Origin: an uncultured Rhodospirillales bacterium
GTDB lineage: Bacteria > Pseudomonadota > Alphaproteobacteria > Azospirillales > Azospirillaceae
Length of the DNA: 57,714 bases
NCBI GenBank assembly: GCA_903931735.1
Contig: CAIZDL010000146.1
Location: 1-57,714 of the forward strand
Direction: 5' to 3'
This document shows, in pieces, positions 30,772-37,516 of the stretch. The notes beneath the pieces are model-generated. The model worked only from the letters and a program-made list of their open reading frames with translations, ran no database searches and was not told where the DNA came from. The translations under genes were made by a program, and so were the position numbers. Every line of letters starts with the position of its first letter. Position 1 is the stretch's first letter.

Positions 30772-33044
30772 GCCGCCTGCTCTTGCGTGCTTGCGCCGCT
30801 TGGGGCGACGCGGGGGAAACGCATATGGAAGGTGGTGCCTTTGCCCTCAACGCTGTCAACGGTTATTCGGCCGCCCAGCGACTTGGTGACAAGATTGAAA
30901 ACAATGTGCAGCCCAAGGCCGCTGCCTCCCGAGCCGCGCCGGGTGGTGAAGAACGGCTCGAAAATCTTCTCCTTTGACGCTGGCGGAATCCCTTTGCCGT
31001 CGTCGCAAAAGCTCAGCTCGATCTCGCCGCCATCGGCCGGGGACTCGACGGTGATGGTGATGGTGCCTTCAGGCTTGGTTTCAAAAGCGTGGTCGAGGGC
31101 GTTGATCACAAGATTGGTCACCACCTGAGAAAATGCGCCGGGGTAACCATCGATGATGATATCGCCGGGGCAGGTCACGATCACCCGGTGCGGTGTGCTG
31201 CGAAGGCGCGGCCCAAGGCTGGTTACGACCTCGTTGAGATAGGTCTTGAGGTTGAAGCGGCGCAACTCGGCGCTGGCCTGATCCACCGCAACCTGTTTGA
31301 AGCTGCGGATAAGCTCGGCCGCCCGGCTTAAATTGCCCGACATCAGCCGCGTCGATTCGGCCGCTGCCGCACCATAGGCGGTCAGCTCGGATTTCTTGAG
31401 ATTGCCGCCCTCCAGCGCCTCGACCAATTGCCGGGTGCGGGTGGCCAGCAGGCTGGCGCAACTGAACGCGATGCCGACCGGGGTGTTGATCTCGTGAGCG
31501 ATGCCGGCGACCAGCAGCCCGAGCGAGGCCATTTTTTCGGCCTGAACCAAACTGGCCTGGGTATCCTTGAGTTCGGCGTAGGCGCGCTCGGTCGCCTGCA
31601 TTGCCGCCATGGTTTCCTCGGTGGCGCGGGTCTCGGCGGTAACATCGGTGTAGGTGCAGACGAAGCCGCCCATGAACAGCGGATTGGAGCAGATTTTGAT
31701 AACCGTGCCGTCGGGCCGGCGGTGATTGAAGGTGAAGTATTCGGTCGGCATTCGGCGCCAGAGGATGGCCAGCTCGTTGGAGCCGCCCTCGCCGCCGAAT
31801 TCTCCGCGCTCGATCTGGTATTGGGTCATTTCGTCGAAGCTCGGGCGCTTGACCAGCACCTTGAGCGGAACGTTGAGCAGGTCGGCCGCGCGCCGGTTGA
31901 AGGTGACCAAGCGAAGATCATGGTCGAACATCACGATGCCTTGGTCCACGTTTTCGAGCGTGGCCTGAAGGATCGCCCGTTCGCTGGCCAGGTCCAGCTC
32001 CGCTTGTTTGCGCTCGGTGACATCGGCGATGACGCCGGTGAGGCGCAGGGCGACGCCGCTCGCGTCCCGGAGCGCGGTCGCCCGGTCTTCCACCCACAAA
32101 ATCCGCCCGTCCTTGGCGCGGAGGCGATAAACGTTGCTGTAGCTTTCGGTTTCCCCGACGATGTGGCGTAACGATTCGGCGAGCACCCGGTCGCGGTCGT
32201 CGGGATGGATCAGGCTTTCGAGGGTTTCTGCGGTCATTGGCAGCTCATCGGGGGCATAGCCGAGAATCCCCGGAAACTCCGACGACCACCAGACCTGGCC
32301 GTTGGTCAGGTCCATATCCCAGACCGAGGAGCGGGTGGCGGCGATGGCGAGGCTGAGGCGCTCCCCGCTTTTGCGTAAGGACACCTCTTCGTAGGCGAGT
32401 TTGACCAGCAGCCGGTTGTAAGCGGCGATCACGTTGCCCAGTTCATCGTTGGACTGCCACTCCACCAGTTCGCGCCGCCCCTTTTGCTCGGCGGCCCGGA
32501 TCGAGGCGATGAGCTTTTCCAGCGGGACTCCGGTGGTGATGCGAAACGCAAACAGTGCCGTCACCACGGTCACCACCAAAAGCAGCAGGAGTAAGGTGGC
32601 GGCGTTGACGATTTCGGTGCGGAGCAGGGCGTTGGCGGCGTCGAAGGTATAGCGCAGGGTCATCCGGCCGATGGCCCGCCCGGGCTCCCCGGTGATGTCG
32701 CGGGTTACTTTGGGCGCGGTTTCGGGGAGGTGGCAGCCGGCACGCGGCCAGGAAAAACCGGGGCGCTCGCTTGCGAGTGCAATCTCGATACAGCGAATTT
32801 CCCGGTTGGCCGACATTGCCGACAAAATCGCTTGGGTCGCGGCCGGATCTCCCGAAGAAAGGCTGCGCTCCAAAGCAATGGCGTTGATATCGGCCATGGC
32901 GGTTATGCGGTCGGTGATGCCTTTGCGGAGTTCTGCCGATTTATTGAAAAAGAATACGGTCGCGAACGCCACCGTCGACAGGGCGAGAATTGGGATCAGG
33001 ATCAGCAGAAACTTGGCCCAGGCCGTGGGTATTCTTGTCCACAT
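30768..33044 (-). CDS. Membrane PAS sensor histidine kinase
   Basis: An inner-membrane sensor kinase of 758 residues from the start chosen here. TM1 (about 11-32) and TM2 (about 165-185) flank a periplasmic sensor of roughly 130 residues that contains two cysteines. HAMP follows, then two PAS domains, the first with LIHPDDRDRVLAES and the second with IVMFDHDLRLVTFNRRAADL. HisKA has His517 in VAGIAHEINTPVG, and HATPase has DDGKGIPPASKEK and GSGLGLHIVFNLV. GGGAG four bases upstream supports the ATG at 33044, which gives a typical kinase N-terminus (MWTRIPTAW). A GTG at 33137 would add 31 polar residues but lacks a ribosome site. It is first in an operon with the hybrid kinase and the ABC ATPase. 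Confidence 0.9.
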   Translation of the reverse strand: MWTRIPTAWAKFLLILIPILALSTVAFATVFFFNKSAELRKGITDRITAMADINAIALERSLSSGDPAATQAILSAMSANREIRCIEIALASERPGFSWPRAGCHLPETAPKVTRDITGEPGRAIGRMTLRYTFDAANALLRTEIVNAATLLLLLLVVTVVTALFAFRITTGVPLEKLIASIRAAEQKGRRELVEWQSNDELGNVIAAYNRLLVKLAYEEVSLRKSGERLSLAIAATRSSVWDMDLTNGQVWWSSEFPGILGYAPDELPMTAETLESLIHPDDRDRVLAESLRHIVGETESYSNVYRLRAKDGRILWVEDRATALRDASGVALRLTGVIADVTERKQAELDLASERAILQATLENVDQGIVMFDHDLRLVTFNRRAADLLNVPLKVLVKRPSFDEMTQYQIERGEFGGEGGSNELAILWRRMPTEYFTFNHRRPDGTVIKICSNPLFMGGFVCTYTDVTAETRATEETMAAMQATERAYAELKDTQASLVQAEKMASLGLLVAGIAHEINTPVGIAFSCASLLATRTRQLVEALEGGNLKKSELTAYGAAAAESTRLMSGNLSRAAELIRSFKQVAVDQASAELRRFNLKTYLNEVVTSLGPRLRSTPHRVIVTCPGDIIIDGYPGAFSQVVTNLVINALDHAFETKPEGTITITVESPADGGEIELSFCDDGKGIPPASKEKIFEPFFTTRRGSGGSGLGLHIVFNLVTKSLGGRITVDSVEGKGTTFHMRFPRVAPSGASTQEQAA

Positions 33045-33404
33045 CGCACTCCCGATCATCGACGCCACCGCTGGTCTTTTGGCCGCTTCATCGTTCAGCC
33101 TTCCTTGCTCTGCGTCCGTGTCCGCCCGTTTTGGCACTATATCAGAGGTGCCGGGGCGCTGTCGTGGCCTTGCGGCGGGAGTTAAGGGTTTCTTGTTTCG
33201 GTGGGGGCTTTGTCAGCGGGCTTGAGAGGCGGGCTGGTATAGGTTAGTGTGGCGAAAGACAGGGTAAACCGGGGGCAGGCGATCTTGCCCCGGTTTTCAT
33301 CGACAGGGGATGCAAGACCTCGTTGGAAACACGGGTTCGTTGGTCGGGGGGTCCGGCTGTGGGCGCGTTTTAGACGATGGCGATGGCGTGAAAGTGAGGA
33401 TACG
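33045..33404. other. Divergent intergenic region between the PAS kinase operon and the partner-switching cassette
   Basis: The left 93 bases (33045-33137) could encode an N-terminal extension of the PAS kinase from a GTG start. The rest is non-coding and must contain promoters for two divergent operons. I see no convincing -35/-10 pair or operator. An open frame runs into the STAS gene from about 33249, but it lacks a start signal comparable to the GTGAGGA before 33405. Confidence 0.45.
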
Positions 33405-33710
33405 ATGGAGTTTCAAGCGCGCAACCTGGCAGATGCAATAGAGGCGCGTCTTACCGGGCGGCTGGAGTTCACTGCCCATGACCGCCTGCGGGATATTGTG
33501 GCGTTGTTGGATGCTCCCAATTTACGCCGGTTCGTGGTCGACGTATCGGGGCTGGATTTCATTGATTCCGCTGGGCTGGGGATGATTTTGATCCTCCAGG
33601 AGGAAGCGGAGCAAAAGAATATCAAGCTGGTCGTGCGCGGGCCGCGTGACGACGTGAAGCGCTCGATCGATCTCGCGAAGATCGGTGAGATCGTGTCCAT
33701 CGAGTATTAG
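33405..33710 (+). CDS. STAS-domain anti-sigma-factor antagonist (RsbV/SpoIIAA type)
   Basis: A single STAS domain of 101 residues. In partner switching the unphosphorylated form binds the HATPase partner and frees its other target. The phosphorylatable serine is Ser55 in VSGLDFIDSAGLGMILILQE, the standard position. GTGAGGA four bases before the ATG decides this start over longer readings. The next two genes encode the expected kinase and phosphatase partners on the same strand with almost no gaps, so this is a three-gene cassette. No sigma factor gene is adjacent, so the final target is unknown. Confidence 0.93.
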   Translation: MEFQARNLADAIEARLTGRLEFTAHDRLRDIVALLDAPNLRRFVVDVSGLDFIDSAGLGMILILQEEAEQKNIKLVVRGPRDDVKRSIDLAKIGEIVSIEY

Positions 33711-34449
33711 AGAGGCGAGCATCAACACGATACCATTTAGCGTCGTCGCCGATCTGATCCCGGCAGAAGCGGGAGGACGGTGCGCCGCGCGTTTTGGCGC
33801 GTTTGACGATGCCGACGAGGCCGTGCCGGAAGAGGGGCGTTGCCGGCGGGTTTTGCTCGTGTCGGATGTGGACCGGGAGGTTTTGGCCACCAGTCTGTCT
33901 GAGCCCGGCGCGGTGGTGGTGGAAGCCTGCGAAGGCGGACTGCCGGCCGGCGATTGGGCTGCGGTGTCGGTACCGGCGAATGGTTTTTATCTGTCCCTCG
34001 CGACCGCGACGGCGTTTTCGCTGGTGTTGGCGCCGTTGGTGGGCGGGGTGTTGGCGGCCCGCCGGGTCCTGGCGAGCGATAAGCAATCGGTCGTTGAGTT
34101 GTGTCTCCAGGAGGCGGTGGCCAACGCCGTCATTCACGGCAACCTCGGAATTTCGAGCAGCGCGAAAGACCACCCCGAGGGGTATCGGGTCTATAGCCAA
34201 TTGGTGAATAGCCGCCTCGGCGATCTGGAGTTGCGTCAACGGCGTGTCGAGGTGTTCGCGCGCTGGAGCGGCGGCGCCCTTGATATCAGCGTTGCCGATC
34301 AGGGGATCGGGTTTGACGTGGCGAAACTGCCCGCCGAAATTGGTAGCCACAGCCGGTCTGGGCGTGGGTTTGTGTTTATGCGGGCGCTGGCGGGCCAAGT
34401 TGTGGTTACCGATGGCGGGCGCTGTACGTCTTTGCGCTTTGAGCGTTGA
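33685..34449 (+). CDS. RsbW-like HATPase/serine kinase with N-terminal extension
   Basis: The switch-protein kinase expected to phosphorylate the upstream STAS protein. The C-terminal half is a GHKL ATPase with an N-box (LQEAVANAVIHGN), G1 box (VADQGIGFDV) and G2 region (SHSRSGRGFVFMRAL). The first 115 or so residues are an extra region with a receiver-like secondary pattern (RRVLLVSDVDREVLATSL) but no clear phosphorylation site. The only standard start that keeps this region is GTG at 33685, inside the STAS gene. However, the best ribosome site points to an ATC codon at 33721. The true N-terminus is therefore uncertain by 12 residues. The stop is 13 bases before the phosphatase gene. Confidence 0.85.
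   Translation: MRSCPSSIREASINTIPFSVVADLIPAEAGGRCAARFGAFDDADEAVPEEGRCRRVLLVSDVDREVLATSLSEPGAVVVEACEGGLPAGDWAAVSVPANGFYLSLATATAFSLVLAPLVGGVLAARRVLASDKQSVVELCLQEAVANAVIHGNLGISSSAKDHPEGYRVYSQLVNSRLGDLELRQRRVEVFARWSGGALDISVADQGIGFDVAKLPAEIGSHSRSGRGFVFMRALAGQVVVTDGGRCTSLRFER
33709..33716 (+). promoter_or_regulatory. Ribosome binding site AGAGAGGC preceding an ATC codon
   Basis: The octamer AGAGAGGC occurs here and again at 34451-34458, before the receiver-PP2C gene. In both places a four-base spacer follows. At the second site the next codon is ATG; here it is ATC (33721-33723). The match suggests that translation of the HATPase gene may begin at this rare codon. Confidence 0.45.
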
Positions 34450-34462
34450 TAGAGAGGCTGAT

Positions 34463-35617
34463 ATGGCCATTTCTCTTGATGACAGCCGCGTTTTAATTGT
34501 CGACGATAACGAGTTTAATCGTAAGTCGCTTTCCATGCTGTTGCTGCGGAGCGGTATCAGTAATCTGGAATTCGCGGTGGATGGTGTCGACGGTCTTGCT
34601 AAAGTCGATATGTTCCGGCCCGACCTGATTTTACTCGATGTTGATATGCCCAACATGGATGGGCTGGAGATGTGCCAGCGGCTCCGTGCCAGTGCTCTTC
34701 ATTCTGACCTGCCAATTCTGTTTCAGACCGCGCTCGATAGTGACGAAGAACAGGTCGCTTGCTTTAAGGCCGGCGGCAACGATTTTATCAGCAAGCCGAT
34801 CAAACCCGGGGAGTGCGTGGCCCGGGTTCGGCATCAATTGGAACGGCGCAAGTTGTTCAACGATCTCACCGCCTTTCGCGAGCGGGTGGAGAAGGAGTTG
34901 CGGCACGCCCATGCTATGCAAATGTCTCTGTTGCCAGAACCGCGTAAGGTCGCCGCGATTGGTCTTGCCCATGGTCTCGATATTTCCAGCCATTTCGAGA
35001 CCTCTTCGGAGCTTGGCGGCGATCTTTGGAGCGTCTTCGAACTGGATGAGCACCGAGTCGGGATTTTGATTGTCGATTTTGCGGGGCACGGCATTACCGC
35101 AGCGATCAATACCTTTCGGTTGCATACATTGTTTGAGCGAATTCCGGCAAAAGACCTGGACCCTGCGGAATGGTTGGGCGCACTGAATGCGTCGCTTAAA
35201 GATGTGCTGCCGACCGGGCAATTTGCTACCGCATTTTATTGTATCCTTGATAAACGCACCGATGTTTTGACCTTCTCCGGTGCGGGGGCGCCCAACCCGA
35301 TTTTGTGCGAGGGCGATACGTTGACATTGTTGGATTCGGCGGGGATGTTGCTGGGGATTTCCCGGCGCGCCAAATACCATACTCAGCAAGTAACGTTGCC
35401 TCCCGGCGGTTTTCTGGTGCTGTATAGCGATGCTCTGATCGAGTGTCGGGATGCTCTCGGCGTGCCGTTTGGCCAGGATGCCGTAATGGAGACGGTGCGG
35501 GCGATTGTTGATGACCGGCCGGCGGACCCGGTTCAAGCGCTGCTTCAGCCGTTTCTTTCGCGCATTGCCCGCCCTTTTCGCGATGATTTGACGCTGATTT
35601 GGGTCGGTCGCCGTTAG
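34463..35617 (+). CDS. Response regulator with PP2C-type (SpoIIE/RsbU) serine phosphatase output
   Basis: A 384-residue protein whose receiver domain would control dephosphorylation of the STAS protein. The receiver (1-125) has the acidic pair in VLIVDDNEFNRK, phosphoacceptor in LILLDVDMPNMDG and Lys in FISKPIKPGE. After a helical linker, the PPM phosphatase domain retains its metal-binding acids: GGDLW, VDFAGHGITAA, LYSDALIECRD and FRDDLTLIWV. AGAGAGGC four bases before the ATG fixes the start. Together with the STAS and HATPase genes it forms a complete switch in which phosphorylation by an unknown kinase would set the phosphatase. The PAS kinase operon transcribed divergently next door is a natural candidate for that kinase. 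Confidence 0.94.
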   Translation: MAISLDDSRVLIVDDNEFNRKSLSMLLLRSGISNLEFAVDGVDGLAKVDMFRPDLILLDVDMPNMDGLEMCQRLRASALHSDLPILFQTALDSDEEQVACFKAGGNDFISKPIKPGECVARVRHQLERRKLFNDLTAFRERVEKELRHAHAMQMSLLPEPRKVAAIGLAHGLDISSHFETSSELGGDLWSVFELDEHRVGILIVDFAGHGITAAINTFRLHTLFERIPAKDLDPAEWLGALNASLKDVLPTGQFATAFYCILDKRTDVLTFSGAGAPNPILCEGDTLTLLDSAGMLLGISRRAKYHTQQVTLPPGGFLVLYSDALIECRDALGVPFGQDAVMETVRAIVDDRPADPVQALLQPFLSRIARPFRDDLTLIWVGRR

Positions 35618-35680
35618 AGCGGGCAGCTTCGGGGTGGAGTCCCCCCATGCGGCTCCGCATAATCGCATTATGCTCTAATA

Positions 35681-36301
35681 CTAGGCTCGGCGTGGCGGCG
35701 TTTCGATTGGCGGTATCGCCCCTGGGTTTGGCGTTCCGAGAAATTCGGCGAAATTTTTGTCGGAAATTAACACATGGCCAGACCACCACGACCCTACGAA
35801 GAATAAAAATTCCTCAATTCCATAGTCTTCGTCTTTTATGCTGTCCATAAGCATCATAATATCAACAAGGAACTCATCGTGTTGTTTTTTGTGGAGGCGT
35901 ATTCGTGGATAGTTGTGATTTCTCATCTCTCGTTCTTCAGAAATAAAATAATCGCTGATTGCTGTTATCAGGGTGGAGATTCGGTGAAAGACCGACTTCA
36001 TATCGATTGTGTGACTGTTGGCGATGCTAAATTCGGTCACCAAGCTGTTAAACATTAAGGCGATGATCCGATGGTGGCTATCAATTGATGCGATTCCGAC
36101 AGTATAATCATCGCCAATCCCGATATTCGATAGTTGCGTGATTAGCTTTTCACCTTTATGAGGTTGTGGTTTTTTCTCTTTCCAAATAGATTTCCGAATC
36201 GACCGTTGGCGGGTGGCTTGAAGTTCAGATAAAAAACGACAAAATGTCTCCTGAATCCAAGGGCTGAGTTGGATAACGGAGCGCGATAGCTTAACGATCA
36301 T
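35681..36301 (-). CDS. Bacteriohemerythrin-like protein with one substituted iron ligand
   Basis: A 206-residue protein with an N-terminal region of about 85 basic residues followed by a hemerythrin domain (about 88-205). Hemerythrins bind O2 at a di-iron site. Recognisable ligand motifs are VGIASIDSHHRI, SEEREMRNHNYP, LHKKQHDEF and WWSGHVLISDKNF. The histidine normally found in HFxxEE is tyrosine here (DYFISEE), so one canonical ligand is missing. GGGGAG nine bases upstream supports this ATG; an open frame extends 62 codons further but has no better start. Its codon use is more A+T-rich than its neighbours. It is transcribed toward the PP2C gene and stands alone. Confidence 0.85.
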   Translation of the reverse strand: MIVKLSRSVIQLSPWIQETFCRFLSELQATRQRSIRKSIWKEKKPQPHKGEKLITQLSNIGIGDDYTVGIASIDSHHRIIALMFNSLVTEFSIANSHTIDMKSVFHRISTLITAISDYFISEEREMRNHNYPRIRLHKKQHDEFLVDIMMLMDSIKDEDYGIEEFLFFVGSWWSGHVLISDKNFAEFLGTPNPGAIPPIETPPRRA

Positions 36302-36469
36302 TACGACAAACTCCCCGGCGATCAGCCGGATTAAGGGGCGCGTCTTGAAAAAGCAGCCCCGCCATATTTTCCGGACCAGCCTCCCCGCGCTCGCCTGCTG
36401 CTTACCGATCAAACACCACTTGGCCCGGGAGCGCAAGCGAGGTGACCTTCGTATTCCCAATGAAGCCGC

Positions 36470-36497
36470 TTGTTTCTTCGATGGCAATGCCTATAGT
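36470..36497 (+). promoter_or_regulatory. Candidate sigma70-type promoter for tRNA-Leu
   Basis: TTGTTT (36470-36475) and TATAGT (36492-36497) are 16 bases apart. The -10 box matches five of six consensus positions and the -35 box three. The -10 box ends 10 bases before the tRNA 5' end, which allows a very short leader. Confidence 0.35.
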
Positions 36498-36507
36498 CGG
36501 CAGGCCC

Positions 36508-36593
36508 GCGGGCGTGGCGAAACCGGTAGACGCACCAGACTTAAAATCTGTCGGCCTATGGCTGTGGGGGTTCGAGTCCCCCCGCCCGCACCA
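36508..36593 (+). tRNA. tRNA-Leu (anticodon UAA)
   Basis: The 86 bases fold as a class II tRNA. The 7-bp acceptor stem pairs GCGGGCG (36508-36514) with CGCCCGC, followed by discriminator A and an encoded CCA end. The D-arm has the usual GGTAGACGC. The anticodon loop is CTTAAAA (anticodon TAA). A long variable arm follows, and the T-arm is GGGGG-TTCGAGT-CCCCC. It reads UUA and UUG leucine codons, which are rare in GC-rich genomes. Confidence 0.97.
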
Positions 36594-36694
36594 TGCCTGC
36601 CCGTACCTTTGGCCCGTACTTAAGTTAAGGAGCGGGGAGAGATTCACATCGGGTCTCGATACAGCGTCCGTGGTTCAATGCGGTACAGCATGTG

Positions 36695-37516
36695 ATGCAG
36701 GAAATTTTACCGACTATCGATCCAGGGTTCGAGGCTGACGCCGCCGATGCCGTGTCTGCCATGTCTGCGCTGGGGGGGACGGCGGGGGTTAGCCGGGATC
36801 CGTTGCTTGGCGGGCGGTTGGTGGTGGCTCAGCCGGTTCGGGGCTATCGGGTGGCGATTGATGCGGTGCTGCTGGCGGCCGCCGTTTCGGCGCATCCGGG
36901 GGAGCGGGTGCTGGAATTGGGGACCGGGGTGGGGGCCAGCGCATTGTGCCTTGCGGCGCGGGTGCCGGGAGTGGCGGTGGTCGGGTTGGAAATCCAGGCG
37001 CATCTTGCTGCGTTGGCGGCGGCGAATATTGCGGACAACGGCCTTGGGGCGTGGGTATCGGTGGTGACGGGCGATCTCCGGCAGCCGCCGGCCGCTCTGG
37101 CTCCGGGCAGCTTCGATCGGGTGATGGCCAACCCGCCTTATCTCCGGGCTGGGGCCCACACGCCCTCTCCTGATCCTTCGCGGGCCATGGCGAATGGCGA
37201 GGGCGACGCTGAATTGGCCGATTGGGTGGACGCTGCGGCAAAAATGTTACGCCCCAGTGGTCATTTTACGGTGATCTATCGGGCCGATCGGCTGGACGAA
37301 GCGATCTCGGTGATACATAAGAGGTTTGGTGCGGTGGTGCTGTTTCCGCTCTGGCCCCGGGCCGGGGTTGCGGCCAAGCGGGTTTTGTTGACCGGCCGGC
37401 TTGGCGCTGCGTCGCCTGCACGGTTATCGGCGGGCTTGGTGCTCCACGGGGCCGGCGGCGGTTTCAGCGCCGACGTTGAAGCGGTGCTGAGGGGGGCGGG
37501 CGCGTTGGAGCTTTAG
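36695..37516 (+). CDS. SAM-dependent methyltransferase, TrmN6-like (tRNA1Val m6A37 type)
   Basis: A 273-residue Rossmann-fold methyltransferase of the small-domain N6-adenine group. The SAM motif is VLELGTGVGASALCLAAR, and the catalytic NPPY motif is in VMANPPYLRAG, which indicates methylation of an exocyclic amino group of adenine. The N-terminal RVAIDAVLLAAAV segment is typical of TrmN6 (YfiC), which modifies A37 of tRNA1(Val). ATG at 36695 directly follows an in-frame GTG; neither has a strong ribosome site. It lies about 100 bases after tRNA-Leu. The substrate is inferred from family resemblance. Confidence 0.85.
   Translation: MQEILPTIDPGFEADAADAVSAMSALGGTAGVSRDPLLGGRLVVAQPVRGYRVAIDAVLLAAAVSAHPGERVLELGTGVGASALCLAARVPGVAVVGLEIQAHLAALAAANIADNGLGAWVSVVTGDLRQPPAALAPGSFDRVMANPPYLRAGAHTPSPDPSRAMANGEGDAELADWVDAAAKMLRPSGHFTVIYRADRLDEAISVIHKRFGAVVLFPLWPRAGVAAKRVLLTGRLGAASPARLSAGLVLHGAGGGFSADVEAVLRGAGALEL

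Follow-up and report, generated by a model that had tools for sequence, protein, structure and literature searches.

In this uncultured Rhodospirillales bacterium, a partner switch encoded by three genes includes a HATPase kinase that is probably translated from an AUC codon at positions 33,721–33,723 of the forward strand, a reading from comparative sequence evidence to which we assign a probability of roughly 0.83. Few natural AUC starts are documented, and gene-finding software limited to ATG, GTG and TTG would misplace the N-terminus of this kinase in all five genomes of the genus. While non-NTG starts in regulatory genes are already known, the genus-wide use of AUC on a partner-switch kinase is new, and we met no precedent for it in the open-licence literature. 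The stretch of DNA analyzed here (57,714 nucleotides, hereafter the window) is a single contig of a 3.48-Mb genome in 291 contigs.

The partner-switch operon

Three adjoining genes, all on the forward strand and all with Pfam matches over cut-off, make up the operon, and their order is the same in relatives. The first (33,405–33,710, with an ATG start and a TAG stop at 33,708–33,710) encodes a STAS protein, the antagonist and kinase substrate, which matches STAS_2 (5.7e-14) and STAS (9e-13). The second, of 242 codons from the ATC (33,721–34,449), encodes the kinase, with a match to HATPase_c_2 (6.9e-14). The third (34,463–35,617) had been called a PP2C gene in an earlier, sequence-only reading of this DNA; the phosphatase is there (SpoIIE, 4.2e-42), and the name is incomplete in that the product joins a receiver domain (Response_reg, 5e-27) to the SpoIIE/PP2C phosphatase. 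Together these genes are the gene set of a partner switch of the RsbV/RsbW/RsbU or SpoIIAA/SpoIIAB/SpoIIE type, in which phosphorylation of the STAS protein by the kinase is undone by the phosphatase.

Structural comparison agrees with the domain assignments. Foldseek searches with the AlphaFold model of the kinase found LvrC as the best match (3.9e-7), followed by SpoIIAB (E = 1.1e-5) and the RsbV/RsbW complex (4.5e-5), and the predicted fold is thus of the RsbW/SpoIIAB type. The model is of middling quality (mean pLDDT 62.8) and is uninformative about the first residue of the protein because residues 1–44 all have pLDDT below 50. The kinase is expected to work like SpoIIAB, yet it lies outside the SpoIIAB equivalog by the NCBIfam cut-off (TIGR01925; 25.5 bits versus a curated cut-off of 135). 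Searches of the kinase against PHROGs and PDB sequences returned no match.

The surroundings of the operon were also inspected. No sigma factor gene, a possible kinase target, was recognized by eye among the open reading frames of positions 31,500–37,000. Downstream lie an open reading frame on the reverse strand (35,681–36,487) that by eye resembles a hemerythrin-type protein and, on the forward strand, a tRNA gene identified by the Rfam tRNA model (36,508–36,590). A second set of STAS, HATPase and PP2C genes is present elsewhere in the genome (locus L002, G000:C234:9690–12731) and is 34–39% identical to the set studied here.

The kinase start codon within the genus

The family search covered 82 genomes, 52 of them matching at E ≤ 1e-30, and an order-level search covered the same 82. 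Five genomes belong to the genus, that of the window included, and the kinases of the other four (loci L063, L064, L065 and L066) are 62–75% identical to that of the window. In all five, the codon at the position of 33,721 is ATC. Codons −3 and −2 (GAG GCG) are likewise invariant, and codons −4, −1, 2, 3 and 4 vary. The invariance of the ATC is weak evidence taken alone, since 26 of 99 third positions in the STAS gene are also unchanged across the five genomes (the other 73 have changed). Among other start-like codons between −9 and 15, ATT at −5 and ATA at 2 each occur in three of the five genomes, and none occurs in all five.

The kinase is alone in this oddity, because its neighbors start canonically in all six genomes compared (the five of the genus plus G011, of genus g8): the STAS start is ATG in each, and the PP2C start is ATG in five and GTG in one. 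That GTG, in G002 (L063:3736–3738), stands behind AGAGAGGC plus four bases, the arrangement seen in the window, so start-codon strength varies inside the operon.

The proposed ribosome binding site

The sequence-only reading had noted an identical motif and four-base spacer ahead of both the PP2C start and the proposed kinase start, and its coordinates proved exact. The proposed ribosome binding site of the kinase, AGAGAGGC at 33,709–33,716, overlaps the STAS stop and is followed by GAGC (33,717–33,720) and then by the ATC in the HATPase frame; the same octamer at 34,451–34,458 is followed by TGAT (34,459–34,462) and the ATG at 34,463. Within the kinase site, GAGGCG is invariant in the five congeners. 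Predicted pairing with the anti-Shine-Dalgarno (anti-SD) sequence is −6.4 kcal/mol at the ATC and −6.4 at the PP2C ATG. Of 4000 random positions in the window, about 10% match the ATC site in pairing strength, and the kinase ribosome site is therefore only moderate, which weakens the case for AUC.

The repetition of the octamer adds little. It occurs twice in the window against 1.26 occurrences expected, and at least two occurrences were found in 35 of 100 shuffles. Moreover, the other four congeners carry AGTGAGGC before the kinase rather than AGAGAGGC, and only the window and L063, among the congeners, have AGAGAGGC before PP2C. The repeated octamer is weak evidence alone, and the case for the AUC start rests on the relatives, not on the motif.

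RNA structure was considered as well. Folds of 80 nt around the ATC in the five species showed no shared structure (z-scores −1.08, 1.21, −0.30, −0.51 and −1.99), and a structure masking the start was accordingly rejected.

Kinase starts in wider relatives

Beyond the genus, we read the STAS–kinase junction at 55 loci, of which 13 repeated junctions already seen. The 42 that were left comprise the five of the genus, G011 and 36 others (35 from Azospirillum, genus g11, and one from a Magnetospirillum sp. MAG); they represent part of the 52 matching genomes. The start-codon count was confined to these nearer homologs. Among the 36 distinct junctions listed, 31 have an in-frame ATG after the STAS stop and ahead of the conserved kinase block, and one has a GTG there (L059).

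The remaining four junctions (L043, L044, L048 and L055, all of genus g11) have no in-frame ATG or GTG from the STAS stop to the conserved kinase block. Their nearest candidates lie inside the STAS gene, for example a TTG 8 bases or an ATG/GTG 23 bases before the stop, and their kinase starts seem, from these codons, to be unusual too.

Some Azospirillum junctions can be aligned with that of the window codon by codon. L057 (the same place as L009 and as L070 of Azospirillum cavernae) reads ATG GAC ACG ATC CCT where the window reads ATC AAC ACG ATA CCA, and ATG stands at the matching codon in L009/L057 and in L058. Comparison of close relatives thus returned ATC throughout the genus and ATG at the matching codon of these Azospirillum loci, and a conserved N-terminus starting with GTG was not found among them.

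The kinase of G011 (43% identity) also appears to read ATC, less clearly than the kinases of the genus. Its ATC AAG ACG follows AGGAAAGGG, and codon −14 of the frame is a TGA; the anti-SD pairing of −5.6 kcal/mol is matched by 18% of random positions, and codon 17 is a GTG that could be the start instead. In a tree of STAS plus PP2C (29 sequences), the genus is supported at 0.998 and the placement of G011 at just 0.319. The tree is therefore compatible with a single origin of the ATC, shared with G011, and equally with two.

Alternative explanations

The alternative that survives best is nested in the AUC reading and shares its confidence. It holds that the AUC start carries no regulatory meaning, being a weak start that is tolerated, rescued by coupling to STAS translation and simply inherited, which we consider possible though somewhat doubtful. 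Coupling is plausible because the STAS stop, the Shine-Dalgarno sequence (SD) and the ATC are packed into 16 bases, and the variety of kinase start sites across Azospirillum described above also fits a junction of this tolerant kind. Two observations pull the other way: none of the five genomes has reverted from ATC to ATG, a single base change, although 73 of 99 third positions of STAS differ among them, and in Listeria an ATA or ATT start on rsbW is reported to lower output and alter SigB activity (PMC13068326).

That the kinase instead starts at an ordinary downstream NTG, different in each species, is improbable. Each species does have such a codon (the first is at codon 35 in the window, 27 in L063, 23 in L066, 12 in L065 and 47 in L064), anti-SD pairing is fair at some of them (−6.3 kcal/mol in L066, −6.6 in L064), and some positions recur in two or three species (on raw codon counts, the window and L065 share codon 35, and the window, L065 and L064 share codon 47), but no downstream ATG, GTG or TTG is common to all five congeners. 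In L065, for instance, the earliest such codon is the TTG at codon 12, where the others have CTG or CTT. Codons 5–22, moreover, judging by their substitutions, are evolving as coding sequence: variable columns number 3, 4 and 14 of 18 at codon positions 1, 2 and 3, respectively (p = 0.0018), and the pairwise codon differences, from pairs that are non-independent, comprise 60 synonymous versus 34 nonsynonymous changes. This constraint argues against a downstream start, as do eight residues (P5, V8, D11, P14, A15, R20, R24 and F25) that are invariant across the genus and Azospirillum, whose ATG precedes them.

An ordinary overlapping gene, starting at the GTG at 33,685–33,687 or at another NTG inside the STAS gene, is less probable still. 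The claim that this GTG is the only standard alternative, with a poor ribosome site, stood up: it is the sole ATG, GTG or TTG of the HATPase frame after the upstream in-frame stop and before codon 35, and it pairs with the anti-SD at −0.3 kcal/mol. The codon is GTG in L066 and L064 as well as in the window, and four of the five genomes have an open frame upstream, but L063 and L065 have GCG at this position, and pairing where the GTG does occur is −1.9 kcal/mol in L066 and +0.1 in L064. In L065, an in-frame TGA lies nine codons 5′ of the ATC with no ATG, GTG or TTG between the two, which excludes an upstream start there; given this codon and the TGA in G011, a start within the STAS gene is, by the reading frames, already refuted for both. 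L065 is also the genome in which the marks of a non-NTG start are found together most cleanly, namely no usable ATG, GTG or TTG, a codon of the AUU/AUC/AUA/GUC type behind a ribosome site, and conservation of that codon.

Least credible of all is a programmed frameshift at the STAS stop that would yield a STAS–HATPase fusion and leave the ATC an ordinary isoleucine codon: the kinase frame is indeed open across the STAS stop in the congeners, but one conserved frameshift cannot serve both the genus and G011 because their ATC frames relative to STAS differ (stop+13, frame +1, versus stop+20, frame +2), Azospirillum kinase frames vary too and have their own ATG, a second in-frame stop directly follows the STAS stop (TAG TGA) in four of five congeners, and no recognized slippery sequence was seen by eye at that stop.

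infC and the initiator tRNA

The gene for initiation factor 3 (IF3), infC, apparently starts with ATA in this lineage. In all six genomes (the five of the genus and G011), the gene reads ATA behind a purine-rich site (loci L098 to L103, from G011, G002, G003, G004, G001 and G000, in that order). The putative start is clean in L101, L102 and L103, which have no ATG, GTG or TTG between the in-frame stop and the ATA, and less so in L098 and L100, because a TTG intervenes, and in L099, because the frame is open further upstream. The infC start of Azospirillum G014 is ambiguous, since an ATG abutting the SD is followed, two codons on, by an ATA. A non-NTG start in this gene has company in Myxococcus, whose infC (dsg) has an AUC start.

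An altered initiator tRNA reading AUC was considered and rejected, as the initiators found, in four of seven genomes, were ordinary. A stem-loop pattern search of the window genome (G000) had no match; a wider pattern located initiator tRNAs in four of seven genomes (G001, G002, G011 and G014), and none in G000, G003 or G004. ARAGORN, given one locus from each of the four, assigned the anticodon CAT every time. With the tRNA family model, G000 had 35 matches and G002 had 43.

A possible role in kinase dosage

Under the AUC reading, ribosomes ending STAS at the TAG (33,708–33,710), or loading at the overlapping GAGG, would use the ordinary initiator tRNA to start at the AUC, even though the third base is mismatched. 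A review counts AUU, AUC and AUA among the triplets that serve naturally for initiation while falling outside the canonical, G-ending class (PMC4611024), and in a reconstituted system, weak third-base pairs such as AUU with CAU are described as losing ground as IF3 rose (PMC10158994). IF3 would be expected to reject many AUC initiation complexes, and the kinase would therefore be made at a lower level than its STAS partner and the phosphatase, both of which have canonical starts. A low dose of kinase would in turn favor unphosphorylated STAS protein and hence more active STAS. We infer the low initiation rate, the coupling to STAS termination, the sensitivity to IF3 and the effect on the switch.

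The presence of ATC in all five species suggests that a weak start has been kept to hold the kinase scarce, and we put the odds that selection has maintained the codon for such a dosage role at about even. This reading is credible because of published work on the rsbW start codon in Listeria and on RsbV/RsbW stoichiometry in Bacillus. In the former study, rsbW reporter output in L. monocytogenes is reported to have fallen in the order ATG > ATA > ATT, and the ATA and ATT starts raised SigB activity (PMC13068326); in B. subtilis, SigB is described as hypersensitive to the RsbV/RsbW ratio, which was disturbed at the overlap of their stop and start codons (PMC8073009). Against it stands the report, in the same Listeria study, that sigB-operon genes near-always keep canonical starts across 60,690 genomes (PMC13068326), which would not be expected if weak starts on rsbW were favored in general.

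A further and rather unlikely idea is that, through the AUC, the partner switch reports on the state of translation initiation. The kinase and IF3 itself (infC, ATA) would share a class of start that is repressed by IF3 in other bacteria. Reduced IF3 activity or initiation stringency would then lead to more kinase and so turn off the STAS branch, and the AUC would have become fixed for initiation-state sensing in one genus, perhaps two, of the family.

Comparison with known systems

The nearest parallels for the codon itself are genes with fixed starts outside the canonical class. The Listeria study gives infC (ATT) and rnhC (ATC) as confirmed fixed non-canonical starts (PMC13068326). Like infC, which has an ATT or ATC start and is autoregulated by IF3, the kinase gene would have a conserved non-NTG start of the class that IF3 discriminates against; unlike infC, which encodes a translation factor, it encodes a signaling kinase, for which control by IF3 is only inferred. 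Listeria rnhC offers a natural fixed ATC start, reported as experimentally confirmed, in a gene that is not a comparable regulator (PMC13068326).

Among regulators, Streptomyces sigR is the closest case. Its start is given as GTC in 32 of 34 species and as repressed by IF3, with the infC of Streptomyces reading ATC (PMC5472188). As in our genus, the non-NTG start of sigR is conserved, and it is described as setting the stoichiometry of a regulatory pair; unlike the situation here, the weak start is on the sigma factor rather than on the kinase/antagonist, and its repression by IF3 was shown experimentally (PMC5472188). If AUC sets the dose of the kinase, it would be another non-NTG start, beside that of sigR, that sets the stoichiometry of such a pair.

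For the gene, the parallel is with partner switches. The Listeria rsbW mutants likewise have a weak AUN start at a partner-switch kinase behind a STAS gene, and there the change is reported to lower kinase output; those starts are mutations acquired under selection in a gene that in the wild is near-always ATG, whereas the AUC is fixed in the genus studied here (PMC13068326). If AUC sets the dose, it would be a natural, fixed equivalent of the Listeria changes at the rsbW start codon, by which SigB is tuned. The start of rbaW in R. capsulatus overlaps with rbaV, and a coupling of the two has been suggested (PMC3999984). The junction described here resembles both rbaV–rbaW and rsbV–rsbW of B. 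subtilis, where translation across the junction bears on the kinase/STAS ratio and coupling has been proposed (PMC8073009, PMC3999984). In B. subtilis, the stop and an ordinary start overlap as AUGA (PMC8073009), whereas the kinase of our genus would be reached across a 10-base gap and begun at AUC.
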